Positions 25,919 through 31,195 of a stretch of DNA of 64,000 nucleotides are shown here, one piece after another (position 1 is the first letter of the stretch; each line of letters starts with the position of its first letter). The notes below the pieces were generated by a model that saw nothing but the letters and a program-made list of their open reading frames with translations, was not told the origin of the DNA and ran no database searches. The DNA is from Cupriavidus nantongensis (GTDB lineage Bacteria; Pseudomonadota; Gammaproteobacteria; Burkholderiales; Burkholderiaceae). The DNA lies in assembly GCF_001598055.1 (NCBI RefSeq), contig NZ_CP014844.1:1550001-1614000 (forward strand). Reading direction: 5' to 3'. The position numbers and the translations under genes were made by a program.

Positions 25919-27040
25919 ATGGAGCACGGCGAATCCCACGCGTGCGGGCAACGCACGCCCGTAGCGCGCACGCAGCAGCAGTCCCGCAATTCCCGAGGCA
26001 GGCTGGCAGGCACGGCCGCGGCGCTGGCCGCCGCAGCCATGCTGGCGCTGCCGGTACCCGTCGCCGCGGCCACCGCCAATGGCGACTACGCCAAGACGCG
26101 CTACCCGATCGTGCTGGTCCACGGCCTGACCGGCGCGGCGAAGATGGCCGGCGTGCTCGACTACTGGTATGGCATTCCTGAAATGCTGCGGGCCCACGGC
26201 GCGCAGGTCTATGTCGCGACGGTGCCGTCGTTCAACAGCGATGCCGAGCGCGCGCTGGCGCTGCAGGCCTATGTGCGCGCGGTCAAGCTGGAAAGCGGCG
26301 CCGACAAGGTCAACCTGATTGGCCACAGCCAGGGCGGGCCGACCTCGCGCGTGCTGGCGGCGATGTCGCCGCAGGACGTGGCCTCGGTCACCACCATCGG
26401 CAGCCCGCACCGCGGCAGCGAAGTGGCCGACACCGTGCTCGACCTGATCCAGGGCATCGGCGCCATCCCGATTGCCGGACCGGTGCTGGTCAGCCTGATC
26501 CAGGGCGTGTTCGATACGGTCGGCTGGTTCAACGGCATCAGCAACGGCCAGGCGCTGGACCAGGATGCGCTGGCTTCGCTCAAGAGCCTGACCACGCGCG
26601 GTGCCGCCGAACAGAATGCGCGGCTCGACGCCACGCTGGTGCCGGGCACGAAGTCGGCGCTGGGCGCGGACTGCGACAGCGCCGGCGCCGTGTCCGAGCA
26701 GCGCCAGGCGCGCGACGCCGCGGGCAATCTCGTCACCCATACCCAGGCCGCGTATTCGTGGACCGGTCAGGGCGGGCCACTGAGCCTGCTGCGCTCCAAC
26801 CTGCTGGATCCGTCCACGGTGATGATGTCGACCTCGGCGGGGCTGATGGCGCTGAAGGGCGCCGGCGCCAATGACGGGCTGGTCTCGGTGTGCAGCAGCA
26901 AGTGGGGGCGGGTGCTGGCCACCGGCTATTACTGGAACCATCTCGACGAGGTCAACCAGATGGCCGGCCTGTACCAGGATGCCGATCCGCGCACGGTGAT
27001 CCTGAACCACGCCAACCGGCTGCGCAATGACCAGCTCTGA
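25919..27040 (+). CDS. lipA: Secreted triacylglycerol lipase (family I, LipA type)
   Basis: A 373-residue extracellular lipase. The signal region is long: about 28 hydrophilic residues, then GTAAALAAAAMLALPVPVAAA. The mature part starts near TANGDYAKTRYPIVLVHGLTG with the oxyanion-hole HGL. The catalytic Ser lies in GHSQGGPTSR, the acid and Ca-binding Asp residues lie in the DGLVSVCSSKWG region, and His in the YYWNHLDEVNQ segment. Two cysteines (in GADCDSAG and VCSSK) fit the family's disulfide. The gene has a good GAGGAGA site and is followed by an overlapping foldase gene, as in Burkholderia and Pseudomonas. It is exported by Sec, folded with Lif help, then secreted by the type II system. 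Confidence 0.94.
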   Translation: MEHGESHACGQRTPVARTQQQSRNSRGRLAGTAAALAAAAMLALPVPVAAATANGDYAKTRYPIVLVHGLTGAAKMAGVLDYWYGIPEMLRAHGAQVYVATVPSFNSDAERALALQAYVRAVKLESGADKVNLIGHSQGGPTSRVLAAMSPQDVASVTTIGSPHRGSEVADTVLDLIQGIGAIPIAGPVLVSLIQGVFDTVGWFNGISNGQALDQDALASLKSLTTRGAAEQNARLDATLVPGTKSALGADCDSAGAVSEQRQARDAAGNLVTHTQAAYSWTGQGGPLSLLRSNLLDPSTVMMSTSAGLMALKGAGANDGLVSVCSSKWGRVLATGYYWNHLDEVNQMAGLYQDADPRTVILNHANRLRNDQL

Positions 27041-28073
27041 GCGAGCGCCGCGGTTCTGGCTGGCCTTGCTACCGGCCGGCGCCGCGGCCGCAGCGGTGTA
27101 CTGGCTGACCATGCCGCCGGCTGCGGCGCCCGTGTCGCAGCAGGCGGCGGTGGCGGTCGCCGCGGCTCCGCTTGCGTCATCGGCGGCGCCGGCACCCGCT
27201 GGCGCCGCCGCCTGGCCATCGCTGGCCGGCGTGGAGATGCCCGCAGGTCCCGAGGCCGATGCCGCGGGCAACCTGCGGCTGACGCGCGCGCTGCGGACCT
27301 ATTTCGATTATTTCCTGAGCGCGCGCAACGACGCCGGCGGCATCGATGCGCTCGACGCGCTGGTGCATGACGATATTCGCCGCCACGTGCCGCAGCCCGC
27401 GGCCGGACAGGCGTGGCAGCTGTGGCGCCGCTACGTGGCCTACCTGGCCGAGATCCAGCCCGAGGCCGTGCGCAAGCCGCTGGCGGACGCGGACGGCACG
27501 CTCGATGCGCAGCAGGTGCAGCAATTGCGCGCGCTGCTGGCGCAGCGCAACGCGGCGCGCCAGCGCTGGCTGCCTGAAGTCGCGCAGGCTTGGTTCGGCG
27601 AAGAGCAGGCCTATGACGAGGCCATGCTGGCGCGGCTGGAGATCATGGCGCAGGCGGGCCTGGACGACGCGCAGCGGCGGCAGCGGCTGGCCGACCTCGA
27701 CGCCACGCTGCCTGAACCCTTGCGCGCCGCAAGCGCAGCCAGCGCGCGCCCGCAGGCCATCAGCCAGACCATCTCAGAGCTGCAGGCGGCCGGACGCACC
27801 ACGCAGGACATCGGCGCCGCGCTGGCACAGGCCTACGGCCCCGAGGTGGCGCAGCGCTACCAGCAGCAGGCGCAGGCCGAGCAGTCATGGCAGCAGCGTT
27901 ACCACGACTACGCGGCGCGGCGCGCGCAGATCGAGGCGTTCGCGGGGTTGTCGGAGCAGGATCGGCGGCAGCAACTTGACGCGCTGCGCAGGCAGGCTTT
28001 CGACAATCCGAGCGAGGCGCTGCAGGCGGAAGTGGTGGATAGTGCGATGGCTGCAAGAAAAACGGCACCGTAA
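27027..28073 (+). CDS. lipB: Lipase-specific foldase (Lif chaperone)
   Basis: A 348-residue membrane-anchored periplasmic chaperone. An N-terminal anchor (FWLALLPAGAAAAAVYWLTM) and an Ala/Pro-rich linker precede the folding domain. The key motif RTYFDYFLSARNDAG (about residue 90-105) matches the Lif consensus RxxFDY(F/C)LSA. The C-terminal two thirds is strongly helical with many Gln, Arg and Ala, as for the alpha-helical embrace around the lipase. It overlaps lipA by 14 bases, so both proteins are made together. A REP-like hairpin that could have ended this transcript is interrupted by an IS481 element just downstream. Confidence 0.92.
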   Translation: MTSSERAPRFWLALLPAGAAAAAVYWLTMPPAAAPVSQQAAVAVAAAPLASSAAPAPAGAAAWPSLAGVEMPAGPEADAAGNLRLTRALRTYFDYFLSARNDAGGIDALDALVHDDIRRHVPQPAAGQAWQLWRRYVAYLAEIQPEAVRKPLADADGTLDAQQVQQLRALLAQRNAARQRWLPEVAQAWFGEEQAYDEAMLARLEIMAQAGLDDAQRRQRLADLDATLPEPLRAASAASARPQAISQTISELQAAGRTTQDIGAALAQAYGPEVAQRYQQQAQAEQSWQQRYHDYAARRAQIEAFAGLSEQDRRQQLDALRRQAFDNPSEALQAEVVDSAMAARKTAP

Positions 28074-28108
28074 ATCGGTGCCGTCATTGCGTCAGCTGAT
28101 TGTGTGCT

Positions 28109-28123
28109 CCCTCTCCCGCGTGC
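28109..28123. repeat. Left half of a REP-like hairpin split by the IS
   Basis: CCCTCTCCCGC (28109-28119) followed by GTGC is the left arm of a hairpin. Its right arm GCGGGAGAGGG lies across the IS at 29384-29394. Removing the IS and one copy of the 6-bp duplication restores an 11-bp perfect stem with a GT loop, then CTGGGGTGAGGG, a typical intergenic palindrome of the REP kind. Confidence 0.8.
28118..28123. repeat. Target-site duplication (left copy)
   Basis: GCGTGC just outside the left IS end equals GCGTGC at 29380-29385 just outside the right end, a 6-bp direct duplication within the range known for the IS481 family. Confidence 0.85.
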
Positions 28124-29379
28124 TGTATAGACCGGGGACATAGGTAACAGGTGTGCCAGGACATGGGTAACACTTTTCCCGCTTAGTCAGCGGGAGGATA
28201 ACGTTGCCCTGGAGCCAAACCACCGTGAAGCAGCAAAGAGAAGAGTTCGTCCGCCTGGCACGCCAGGCGGACGCCAACATTGCGGAGCTTTGCCGCCGCT
28301 TCTGCATCAGTCGCAAGACCGGTTACAAGTGGTTGAATCGAGAGGATCTGGACGACCGAACTCGGCGTCCACATAGCTCTCCCGGTCGAACTCCAGCTGC
28401 CGTCGAAGAGCGCGTGCTAGCGATTCGAGCCGAACATTCGGCCTGGGGCGCCCGCAAGATCGCACACGTGCTGGAGCGCGACCACCGCCTCCAGATCGCC
28501 CCGAGTACAGTCAATTGGGTGCTGCGCCGCCATGGCTTGATCGATCCGGCCGCCAGCGCGGCCGCGACAGCATGGCAGCGCTTCGAGCACGACCGGCCCA
28601 ATGCACTATGGCAAATTGACTTCAAAGGTCACTTCGCGACCGACACGCAGAGGTGCCACCCGCTCACGGTCTTGGACGATCACTCCCGGTTCAATGTGCT
28701 GCTCAGGGCCTTGGGCAACGAACAGTTTGAATCCGTACAAGAAGCGTTAGCGAAGGCTTTTGCGCGCTATGGGCTGCCCGAGCGGATCAATGCAGACAAC
28801 GGCCCGCCCTGGGGTTCTCCAGTGCCTCGTGCGTTAACCACGCTGGGCGCCTGGCTGATTCGCCTGGGCGTGCGGCTCAGTCATAGCCGACCTGGCCATC
28901 CTCAGACCAACGGCAAGGACGAGCGCTTCCATCGAACCATGCAGGCAGAGCTGCTGGCCAACCAGCGCTTCCGGGATCTGGATGATGCGCAGCATCACTT
29001 CAGCCATTGGCGCCACGTGTACAACTTCAAGCGCCCACACCACGCGCTGGATATGGAGACACCCGCAAGCCGCTATGCGCCTAGTCCACGGGCGATGCCG
29101 CGCGAACTCCCGCCTATCGAGTACGACAGCGATGACATCGTGCGAAAGGTAGGCGACGGTGGGCGCATCTGCTTCCGGGGAAAGACGTTCCGGGTCGGAC
29201 GAGCCTTGATCGGAACGCCCGTAGCATTGCGCCCTCGCGTGGACCTGGACGGCACCTTTGACGTCTACTTCTGCCATCAAAAGGTGGCCACAATAGACCT
29301 ACAGCAGGTCTATTAAACTGGAGACTGGACTGTTACCCATGTCCCGGCACATGTGTTACCCATGTCCCCGGTCCATACA
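28124..29379 (+). mobile_element. Complete IS481-family insertion sequence
   Basis: 1256 bp. The ends are inverted repeats: left TGTATAGACCGGGGACAT and right (reversed) TGTATGGACCGGGGACAT, 17 of 18 identical. Similarity continues inward, including two copies of a GGACATRGGTAACA motif at each end (28136-28149 and 28159-28172 on the left), 23 bp apart, likely transposase-binding sites. One transposase gene fills the interior. A 6-bp target duplication flanks it. All parts look intact, and codon use and GC are lower than in the surrounding genes, which suggests recent arrival. Confidence 0.92.
28204..29316 (+). CDS. IS481-family transposase
   Basis: A 370-residue DDE transposase. An N-terminal HTH (IAELCRRFCISRKTGYKWLNR, about 26-46) is followed by a second HTH-like region (WGARKIAHVLERDH, STVNWVLRRHGL) and an RNase H-like rve core. 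The probable catalytic triad is D139 (QIDFKGHF), D198 (NADNGPPW) and E240 (DERFHRTM). The C-terminal part (FRGKTFRVGRALIGTPVALRP) is the usual IS481 tail. The start is a TTG at 28204 with GGGAGG eight bases upstream; a GTG at 28225 is a weaker alternative. No frameshift or stop is seen, so it should be active. Confidence 0.93.
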   Translation: MPWSQTTVKQQREEFVRLARQADANIAELCRRFCISRKTGYKWLNREDLDDRTRRPHSSPGRTPAAVEERVLAIRAEHSAWGARKIAHVLERDHRLQIAPSTVNWVLRRHGLIDPAASAAATAWQRFEHDRPNALWQIDFKGHFATDTQRCHPLTVLDDHSRFNVLLRALGNEQFESVQEALAKAFARYGLPERINADNGPPWGSPVPRALTTLGAWLIRLGVRLSHSRPGHPQTNGKDERFHRTMQAELLANQRFRDLDDAQHHFSHWRHVYNFKRPHHALDMETPASRYAPSPRAMPRELPPIEYDSDDIVRKVGDGGRICFRGKTFRVGRALIGTPVALRPRVDLDGTFDVYFCHQKVATIDLQQVY

Positions 29380-29412
29380 GCGTGCGGGAGAGGGCTGGGG
29401 TGAGGGCCAGCA
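29380..29412. repeat. Right half of the split REP-like element
   Basis: After the duplicated GCGTGC (29380-29385) the sequence GGGAGAGGG-CTGGGGTGAGGG follows. This is the right arm and tail of the palindrome whose left arm is at 28109. The same arm and tail, inverted, appear about 40 bases further on. Confidence 0.8.
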
Positions 29413-29450
29413 GATCCACGAAGTAAAGACCCGTGGTATGCCAGTGCCTG

Positions 29451-29489
29451 CCCTCACCCCCGGCCCCTCTCCCGCAAGCGGGAGAGGGG
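29451..29489. repeat. Second REP-like palindrome, inverted relative to the first
   Basis: CCCTCACCCCCGG (29451-29463) is followed by a perfect 12-bp hairpin CCCCTCTCCCGC-AA-GCGGGAGAGGGG (29464-29489). It is the same family as the split copy but in opposite orientation, so the two form a head-to-head pair (REPIN/BIME-like). It sits 18 bases beyond the end of the ETF-QO gene and may help end that transcript. Confidence 0.85.
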
Positions 29490-29506
29490 AGCAAACCGGC
29501 AGCGTC

Positions 29507-31195
29507 TTACATCCCAACGTAGTTCGGCCCGCCACCACCCTCCGGGGTCACCCACACAATATTCTGCGTCGGGTCCTTGATGTCGCAGGTCTTGCAGTGC
29601 ACGCAGTTCTGCGCGTTGATCTGCAGCCGTTCCTTGCCCGAGGTCTCGTCCTGCACGAACTCGTACACCCCCGCCGGGCAGTAGCGCGACTCGGGGCCGG
29701 CGTACTTGTCCAGGTTGATGTCGACCGGCACGCTGGCATCCTTCAGCGTCAGGTGCGCCGGCTGGTTTTCTTCATGGTTGGTGTTGCTGATGAAGACGGA
29801 GCTGAGGCGGTCGAAGGTCAGCTTGCCGTCCGGCTTCGGGTATTCGATCTTCTGGCACTCGGCGGCCGGCTTCAGGTAGACATGGTCCGGCTTCTCGCGG
29901 TGCAGGGTCCAGGGCGGGTTGCGCACGCCCAGCTTGGGTAGCAGCCATTGCTCGATGCCGGTCATCAGCGTGGCGGTGGTGCGGCCCTTCTTGAACCACT
30001 GCTTGAAGTTCTTGGCCTGCAGCAATTCCTTGTACAGCCAGCTCTGCTCGAACGCGGCCGGGTAGGCGCTCAGCTCGTCATGCTGGCGGCCGGCCTGCAG
30101 CGCGTCATAGGCGGCCTCGGCGGCGAGCATGCCGGTCTTGATCGCGGCATGGCTGCCCTTGATGCGCGAGGCGTTCAGGTAGCCAGCATCGCAGCCGACC
30201 AGCGCGCCGCCCGGGAACACGGTCTTGGGCAGCGACAGCAGGCCGCCGGCGGTAATGGCGCGCGCGCCGTACGACAGGCGCTTGCCGCCTTCGAAGTACT
30301 GGCGGATTTCCGGATGGGTCTTGAAGCGCTGGAATTCCTCGAACGGCGACAGCCACGGGTTGGTGTAGTCCAGGCCGACCACGAAGCCGACCGCGACCTT
30401 GTTGTCTTCCATGTGGTACAGGAACGAGCCGCCGTAGGTGGCCGGGTCCAGCGGCCAGCCGGCGGTGTGCACCACCAGGCCGGGCTTGTGCTTGGCCGGG
30501 TCGATCTCCCACAGCTCCTTCAGGCCGATGCCGTAGCTCTGCGGATCCTTGCCGGCATCGAGGCCGAACTTGGCGATCAGCTGCTTGCCCAGGTGGCCGC
30601 GCGCGCCTTCGGCGAAGATGGTGTACTTGGCATGCAGCTCCATGCCCAGCTGGAAGTTGTCGGTGGGCTCACCTTCCTTGTTGATGCCCATGTTGCCGGT
30701 AGCCACGCCCTTGACCGAGCCGTCTTCGTTGTACAGCACCTCGGCGGCCGGGAAGCCCGGGAAGATCTCGACGCCGAGCGCCTCGGCCTGCTGGCCCAGC
30801 CAGCGCACGAAGTTCGACAGGCTGACGATGTAGTTGCCTTCGTTGTGGAAGCACTCGGGCAGCAGCGCCGGGGGCGTGCCCTTGGAGCCGGTCTCGTTCA
30901 GGAACAGGAACTTGTCCTCGGTCACGGCCTGGTTCAGCGGCGCGCCCAGCTCCTTCCAGTTGGGGATCAGCTCGTTCAGGGCGCGCGGGTCCATGATGGC
31001 GCCCGACAGGATATGCGCGCCGGGCTCGGAGCCCTTTTCCAGCACGCACACGTTGACGTCGGCGCCTTTCTCCTGCGCGAGTTGCTTCAGGCGGATGGCC
31101 GTGGCCAGGCCGGCGGGGCCGCCGCCGACGATGACCACGTCATATTCCATGGCTTCGCGCGGGCCGAACTGCTCCAGGAGCTGTTGCTGATCCAT
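29507..31195 (-). CDS. Electron-transfer flavoprotein-ubiquinone oxidoreductase
   Basis: A 562-residue membrane-associated flavoprotein that moves electrons from reduced ETF (beta-oxidation, amino-acid dehydrogenases) to ubiquinone. The FAD motif YDVVIVGGGPAGLATAIRLKQ is at about 18-38. The C-terminal [4Fe-4S] region has four Cys: YCPAGVYEF plus CVHCKTCDIKDPTQNI. The final PEGGGGPNYVGM is the standard ending of this family. It is normal in length. Transcribed away from an SDR gene across a 351-base region; no ETF genes are in the window. Confidence 0.96.
   Translation of the reverse strand: MDQQQLLEQFGPREAMEYDVVIVGGGPAGLATAIRLKQLAQEKGADVNVCVLEKGSEPGAHILSGAIMDPRALNELIPNWKELGAPLNQAVTEDKFLFLNETGSKGTPPALLPECFHNEGNYIVSLSNFVRWLGQQAEALGVEIFPGFPAAEVLYNEDGSVKGVATGNMGINKEGEPTDNFQLGMELHAKYTIFAEGARGHLGKQLIAKFGLDAGKDPQSYGIGLKELWEIDPAKHKPGLVVHTAGWPLDPATYGGSFLYHMEDNKVAVGFVVGLDYTNPWLSPFEEFQRFKTHPEIRQYFEGGKRLSYGARAITAGGLLSLPKTVFPGGALVGCDAGYLNASRIKGSHAAIKTGMLAAEAAYDALQAGRQHDELSAYPAAFEQSWLYKELLQAKNFKQWFKKGRTTATLMTGIEQWLLPKLGVRNPPWTLHREKPDHVYLKPAAECQKIEYPKPDGKLTFDRLSSVFISNTNHEENQPAHLTLKDASVPVDINLDKYAGPESRYCPAGVYEFVQDETSGKERLQINAQNCVHCKTCDIKDPTQNIVWVTPEGGGGPNYVGM

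Follow-up and report, generated by a model that had tools for sequence, protein, structure and literature searches.

The lipAB Locus and the Inserted Element

The window, i.e., the whole stretch of 64,000 nucleotides from Cupriavidus nantongensis that was analyzed, contains an insertion sequence of the IS481 family, termed IS-A in the following, in an intergenic position with the lipase/lipase-chaperone gene pair on one side and a convergent flavoprotein-ubiquinone oxidoreductase gene on the other. The features of the locus are listed with their positions in the window.

27027..28073, plus strand: lipB, lipase secretion chaperone (NF002334, 376 bits vs. 285; PF03280)
28061..28085, no strand: inverted repeat distinct from the split palindrome and located between it and lipB, resembling a terminator on the minus strand
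28109..28119, no strand: left arm of the split palindrome, CCCTCTCCCGC, read from the sequence
28118..28123, no strand: left copy of the target-site duplication GCGTGC, read from the sequence
28124..29379, plus strand: IS481-family element IS-A, 1,256 bp, ends TGTATAGACCGGGGACAT / ATGTCCCCGGTCCATACA (six copies of the same length with 0-1 differences; terminal inverted repeats)
28204..29316, plus strand: transposase gene, 370 amino acids, listed with a TTG start (NF033577, 275.6 bits vs. a cut-off of 224; Pfam rve and HTH_32; structure model)
29380..29385, no strand: right copy of the target-site duplication GCGTGC, read from the sequence
29384..29394, no strand: right arm of the split palindrome, GCGGGAGAGGG, read from the sequence
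29395..29406, no strand: CTG GGGTGAGGG, completing the TM_ECO triplex pattern 3' of the right arm (sequence compared with the pattern printed in PMC4666352)
29449..29490, no strand: second, unoccupied repeat unit of the pair in inverse orientation (palindrome at 29464-29489)
29507..31195, minus strand: electron transfer flavoprotein-ubiquinone oxidoreductase gene, convergent with lipAB (PF05187 and PF21162)

As read directly from the sequence, IS-A runs from TGTATAGACC at position 28124 to GGTCCATACA at position 29379. The preliminary description of this DNA had placed the GCGTGC duplication around the 2-base loop of an 11-bp hairpin that reappears when the element and one duplication are removed. 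This description is correct to the base: the rejoined site reads CCCTCTCCCGC-GT-GCGGGAGAGGG, which is an 11-bp palindrome without any mismatch around a 2-base center, and the duplicated hexamer is centered on it. Such palindromes occur in pairs of inverse orientation with a distance of about 93-97 bp, both at this locus (28109-29490) and elsewhere in the genome.

The Transposase of IS-A

TGT...ACA ends and a short target duplication are the norm in the IS481 family, and IS-A shows both, its ends being terminal inverted repeats, together with a single open reading frame of 370 codons that contains an rve domain, i.e., the DDE/RNase-H integrase core. Its earlier designation as an IS481-type element is borne out by the transposase score above the NCBIfam IS481 cut-off. 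Residues D139, D198, and E240 do not vary among 25 relatives and represent the putative catalytic triad. An AlphaFold2 model of the protein (mean pLDDT 78.8, pTM 0.70) consists of two N-terminal helix groups (residues 8-45 and 65-109) with helix-turn-helix matches, followed by an RNase-H-like core and by C-terminal strands (312-365) that may be read as a barrel. The best fold matches of the model are IS21 IstA complexes, TnsB, and retroviral intasomes, with IstA (8b4h, E 3e-17) as the best match in the PDB, and the sequence likewise matches MMTV integrase (9e-8) and IstA (5e-4). IS21 IstA and the retroviral integrases are the closest PDB relatives in both fold and sequence, but they are distant: the identity with IstA amounts to 17% and the domain arrangement is not superposed (rmsd 26). 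Enzymes of the IstA/TnsB/retroviral integrase type act as two-fold symmetric assemblies, and with such an assembly the duplication would fall on the axis of an inverted pair of half-sites.

In a class-wide search, 4 of 369 genomes gave a match at E up to 1e-95, including the genome of the window itself, and a plasmid search for near matches to IS-A gave none. An Rfam search at E up to 1 returned 13 microRNA matches, none of which reached the gathering score.

Copies of IS-A in the Genome and the Genus

Six full copies of IS-A, differing from the window copy by 0-1 bases, are present in the 7.14-Mb genome, and all six lie at separate sites inside CTCTCCC-GCNNGC-GGGAGAG, exactly centered and with the GCNNGC hexamer duplicated (GCGTGC, GCTTGC, GCGGGC, and three times GCGCGC). 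The genome contains 165 palindromes of the type CTCTCCC-N2..12-GGGAGAG, so that a random insertion would hit such a center with odds of about 2.3e-5, compared with six of six for the full copies. Perfect CCTCTCCCGCNNGCGGGAGAGG palindromes devoid of any insertion number 120 in the same genome. The idea that the arms are part of the IS was consequently rejected, in view of these IS-free palindromes and of the empty site in a congener (G022) described below.

A survey of the genus detected IS-A matches in 7 of 60 genomes, including that of the window. At most six candidates were scored per genome, so the copy numbers for G049, G055, and G022 are lower bounds. From six genomes, 24 full-length copies were recovered, of which 20 carry intact duplications. 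The preliminary description had proposed inspecting the flanks of other copies, and these indeed lie at the center of the same palindrome in all six cases within the genome and in 19 of the 20 intact cases within the genus, corresponding to type 1 of Tobes and Pareja for REP-targeting insertion sequences, in which all copies occupy one position of the palindrome. At 19 of the 20 intact sites, 9-10 of 10 bases are paired per side, compared with about 2.3-3.0 of 10 at random flank positions; a single arm mismatch is present at three of the 19 centered sites (L041, L045, L050). The centers themselves vary across the genus (CTCATG, ATAAAT, GCCGGC, and others), and in the C. gilardii-type genome both the arm spacing and the duplication are 7 bp long. 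The one exception to centering (L058, G055:C1:1898041-1899296) also lies in this repeat, the palindrome of which has a center of only 3 bases here, but was inserted between its two G-rich stretches and has the duplication GGGCGG. Relative to the repeat tail, the orientation of IS-A varies over the 20 sites, with the tail on the left of the element in 5, on the right in 9, and without a call in 6 cases, L058 being labeled left as well. The occurrence of both orientations agrees with the expectation for a symmetric target. These counts exclude L032, L055, and L059 (unequal half-duplications), L033 (contig end), and six partial matches in G022. The three copies with unequal half-duplications, as well as copy L013 of the sister element IS-B, still have a repeat arm on both sides, and their flanks suggest recombination between copies.

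The Target Repeat

PMC4666352 defines the TM_ECO intrastrand triplex pattern as CCCTCNCCC N3-6 GGGNGAGGG N3 GGGNGAGGG, counts 3,610 occurrences in 262 proteobacterial genomes, and reports no tie of the E. coli copies to mobile elements. The rejoined window site, CCCTCTCCC-GCGTGC-GGGAGAGGG-CTG-GGGTGAGGG, fits the printed pattern exactly at the sequence level, with the duplicated hexamer GCGTGC as the first loop of the motif. The target is a high-copy palindrome, with 165 pattern matches in the genome, and a candidate REP element. Occupied sites may differ from TM_ECO in being tail-less, as the triplex tail is absent at least at L041, L051, and L054, and the tail was rejected as a requirement on the basis of these three sites.

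The Empty Site and the Question of a lipAB Terminator

In the congener G022, whose lipB stretch is 91% identical, the region downstream of lipB aligns with the window and contains the palindrome intact and without an insertion at the same locus. The unoccupied site that the preliminary description had suggested looking for in related genomes therefore exists, and G022 carries partial IS-A copies elsewhere. The lipB loci of the relatives have two, one, or zero palindromes: one is present in G057 and G049, none in the lipB spacers of G056, G054, G018, and G032, and a variant, CTCTCCCCCTGAGGGGAGAG, in G019.

The split hairpin had previously been taken for the probable terminator of lipAB, a reading that gained no support, since a separate intact inverted repeat (28061-28085) lies between lipB and the palindrome. 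A repeat of this GGCACC...GGTGCC type was found at the lipB loci of 10 of 11 relatives, including those without a palindrome, and the palindrome should therefore be dispensable for termination at those loci; the split hairpin was rejected as the lipAB terminator on these grounds. The case is weakened by two observations. The terminator scan called the 28061-28085 repeat on the minus strand only and stands at chance level, with 1 hit compared with 1.1 in shuffled sequences, and G019 (L152) lacks the GGCACC repeat and has the palindrome alone, which may serve as terminator in that species.

A Sister Element in a Different Register

A second IS481 element of 1,319 bp, termed IS-B, is present in the same genome in seven copies (L007-L013) and shows about 63-64% nucleotide identity with IS-A over the matched parts. 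It targets the same palindrome, with TCCCGC or TCCCAC as duplication or, when it enters the other arm, GCGGGA or GCGGGC, and the center of the duplication lies 4 bp from the palindrome center at all six sites with intact duplications (L013 was left out because of its unequal halves).

Target Sites of Related IS481 Elements

A view on the target sites of related transposases shows that insertion at palindromes is common to a whole clade of IS481 elements. Among 77 unique clade sites with duplications, 42 are centered on a palindrome, 24 are off-center, and 11 have no palindrome, while the respective values for 3,078 random flank positions are 11, 232, and 2,835; this represents an enrichment over background of about 150-fold for centered and about 4-fold for off-center sites, calculated from sites that are not independent, since 20 of the 77 are IS-A sites and several others come from one genome or lineage. 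None of 17 control sites of other IS481 groups from other genomes showed the palindrome pattern. The clade loci comprise 80 found by transposase search in named genomes, 13 plasmid loci, and further copies. Of the 80, 77 were analyzed for ends (all except L133-L135), 70 had an end pair, 45 passed a filter for a duplication of at least 4 bp, a TGT start, and a length of 1,240-1,300 bp, and 34 were counted after removal of repeats and of L093 (short flank). On the plasmid side, 13 of 27 records were fetched and 9 sites counted, and extra A. vinelandii copies were left out. The controls exclude G162, members of G229/G089 lacking a 4-bp duplication, L255, and the groups G095, G150a, G161, and G296; G309 and G150b were assigned to the clade after inspection of their flanks, in agreement with the tree.

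The palindromes differ strongly between lineages, as seen in the following sites with the duplication in brackets: CTTTTTCTTG[TCTGGC]CAAGAAAAAG in Azotobacter, TACTTTTCTTTG[CTCGCG]CAAAGAAAAGTA in Paraburkholderia, ATCGCCCGG[CTCGA]CCGGGCGAT in Bradyrhizobium, and TGTCATTCCCG[CGAAAG]CGGGAATGACA on a Legionella plasmid. ISRm20 from Sinorhizobium is centered in ATCCCTGTG[CTCGT]CACAGGGAT with a 5-bp duplication. Two S. meliloti strains carry it in the same palindrome (L289, L300, L301) but in opposite directions, as predicted by a symmetric target; once one of the flanks is reversed, they agree at 93 of 95 bases. More distant relatives from G309, P. fluorescens PfAR1, and Variovorax (L224-L227, L116-L121, L140, L110) insert off-center in CCCTCTCCC-type palindromes with 4-5-bp duplications, apart from L225 (G309), which has no palindrome, and L118, which has no duplication.

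A tree of 55 transposases unites the 52 rows of palindrome-associated elements in a single group (support 99/99) and leaves three control transposases outside it. Centered and off-center targeting both recur within this group, with 16 label changes compared with a mean of 20.5 after shuffling and 4 of 200 shuffles as low. These labels represent one site per row, several branches are long, the G229 transposase has no placement, and L093 is labeled off-center although its short flank is centered.

Some further observations concern the distribution of the named elements. Sinorhizobium plasmids gave 113 ISRm20 matches, but only 7 of 53 records contain most of the element and many only about its first 350 bases; the latter are possibly short derivatives moving without a transposase of their own. 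In E. coli, 361 of 5,426 genomes contain a match, most of them ISEc19 at 84% among the 60 of 362 rows listed, and these matches yielded no set of independent sites. ISEc19 (in yagA of E. coli K-12; L294) is a near relative whose match to the L295 element ends 24 bp before the right end, and no right end with a duplication was found for it.

Recognition of Sequence or of Structure

The preliminary description had suggested that the element recognizes the hairpin itself. Such structure recognition, by which an extruded cruciform or a single-stranded hairpin at replication forks would be cut at the stem-loop junctions and its loop duplicated, appears rather unlikely to us. It would readily account for the use of very different palindromes in different lineages and for duplications that coincide with the non-palindromic center in many of them, with cases of 5, 6, and 7 bp; the identical 7-bp spacing and duplication in C. 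gilardii are also what a loop-cutting enzyme should produce. However, the window contains 22 perfect palindromes with a stem of at least 9 bp and a center of 2-8 bases, corresponding to about 2,450 per genome if the window is typical, compared with about 165 of the repeat actually used. Similarly sized palindromes with a different sequence are therefore about 15 times more common, yet none of them was hit among the IS-A insertions examined, and the odds that six insertions guided only by structure would all end up in the used repeat are about 1e-7. IS-A thus does not accept hairpins regardless of their arm sequence. The sister element IS-B argues in the same direction by inserting into the palindrome used by IS-A, but at a distance of 4 bp from the axis, and L129 and L295 still have 6-bp duplications in spite of odd-spaced palindromes.

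Further evidence against recognition of the hairpin as such comes from the sites without a palindrome. Eight of these 11 were checked for similarity to the arm found in a near relative. Six of the eight were alike on at least one side (p < 0.05), with combined p values of 1.4e-6 for the better half and 1.4e-9 for both halves, in a comparison for which the relatives were picked by hand, partly after inspection, and which omits L058, L131, and L225. The remaining two of the eight showed no half-site resemblance. In addition, the 5' arm is rich in pyrimidines in 11 of the 13 distinct cases, the proportion among 90 background palindromes being 44% (p 0.0025; profile controls about 0.5).

As an intermediate explanation, the half-sites might fix the place of insertion, with perfect palindromes being favored and insertion being accelerated because the repeat bends, melts, or is transiently extruded. 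This is consistent with the arms, which combine conservation with good pairing in almost every case, and also with the one-mismatch arms of L041, L045, and L050. As plain half-site reading likewise favors two good half-sites, the results do not separate the two, and we regard a structural contribution of this kind as quite improbable. Finally, the absence of any real preference, with insertions elsewhere lost by selection, or arms that are merely outer parts of the IS, would be compatible with the intergenic repeat in the window and with the constant inner arms beside all copies in the genome, but is practically negligible as an explanation, because selection does not produce base-exact centering, 120 perfect palindromes and the corresponding locus of one relative lack the element, duplications, tails, and orientation differ between copies, and the control IS481 groups of other genomes show the pattern at 0 of 17 sites.

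A Proposed Model of Half-Site Reading

Insertion at or next to palindrome centers, as seen for IS-A and many related elements, apparently occurs because the enzyme reads mirrored half-sequences, and not the shape of a hairpin. The transposase of this IS481 insertion sequence thus probably owes its site specificity for palindromic repeats to a symmetric reading of half-sites. The centering, its repetition among copies, the empty site, the clade-wide occurrence, and the dependence on arm sequence are established from the compared genomes, while reading by a symmetric protein assembly, without the need for an extruded hairpin, is what we infer from them. The target in the genus is the triplex-type repeat CCCTCTCCC-N6-GGGAGAGGG, in which, according to the proposed mechanism, a two-fold symmetric transposase assembly would read one pyrimidine-rich half-site (CTCTCCC) per strand on ordinary duplex DNA. 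Each strand would then be joined to an IS end, with the points of joining staggered by the 5-7 bp that separate the half-sites, which would lead to duplication of the palindrome center. The relatives would possess other half-site specificities matching other palindromic repeats, and in some lineages the register would be shifted by 2-8 bp.

Relation to Known Systems

Several insertion sequences are known to target palindromic repeats (PMC1525189), namely ISPsy8 (IS3), ISRm22 (IS4), ISPpu9, ISPpu10, ISPa11, and IS621 (IS110), and IS1397 and ISKpn1 (IS3). Of these, ISPsy8 and ISRm22 insert on the symmetry axis, and the duplication generated by ISRm22 is 6 bp long. The remark in the preliminary description that some other IS target REP palindromes is thereby confirmed. 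The REP-targeting families named in that paper are IS3, IS110, IS4, IS256, and IS5, and IS481 is absent from its text (PMC1525189). IS-A resembles these elements in that every copy lies in one position of a palindromic repeat, but they belong to other transposase families, and the IS481 case consists of two sisters using one repeat in two registers and of a clade-wide habit. No report of palindrome targeting by IS481 elements was found among the listed titles and abstract openings of an open-access library with incomplete coverage. Other families are therefore known to insert into palindromic repeats, in some cases even on the axis, while the clade-wide habit of IS481 elements is apparently new.

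IS481 itself targets NCTAGN. The CTAG-type IS481 groups share with IS-A the NCBIfam family, the TGT...ACA ends, and 6-bp duplications (G313, G303), but differ from it in using short CTA/TAG-like targets, with a flanking palindrome at 0 of 17 sites. ISRm20 and ISEc19 (E. coli, yagA) are named IS481 elements in or near the IS-A group with about 47-50% transposase identity, and ISRm20 differs from IS-A in its palindrome and its 5-bp duplication. Inverted repeats are also targeted by IS1272 from Staphylococcus, which is reported to replace the inverted repeat without generating a duplication. Such a replacement does not occur with IS-A, which keeps both arms and generates 6-bp duplications. IS110 elements use a bridge RNA.

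The IS481 clade may tentatively be regarded, with slightly less than even confidence, as a natural series of DDE transposases with site specificity, the half-site reader of each lineage having been re-tuned to a palindromic repeat of its host. If this is true, the target sites read from genomes would amount to a table of protein-to-DNA specificities, with two registers on one repeat, and the transposases would be compact enzymes that may need neither a guide RNA nor a separate targeting protein. The old question of sequence versus shape in palindrome-targeting transposons becomes testable in this clade, because the target of each lineage can be read from genomes and two sisters differ in their register on one repeat. 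Targeting of an abundant repeat would allow these elements to multiply with little damage, and the members of the IS481 clade represent compact candidates for site-specific insertion.
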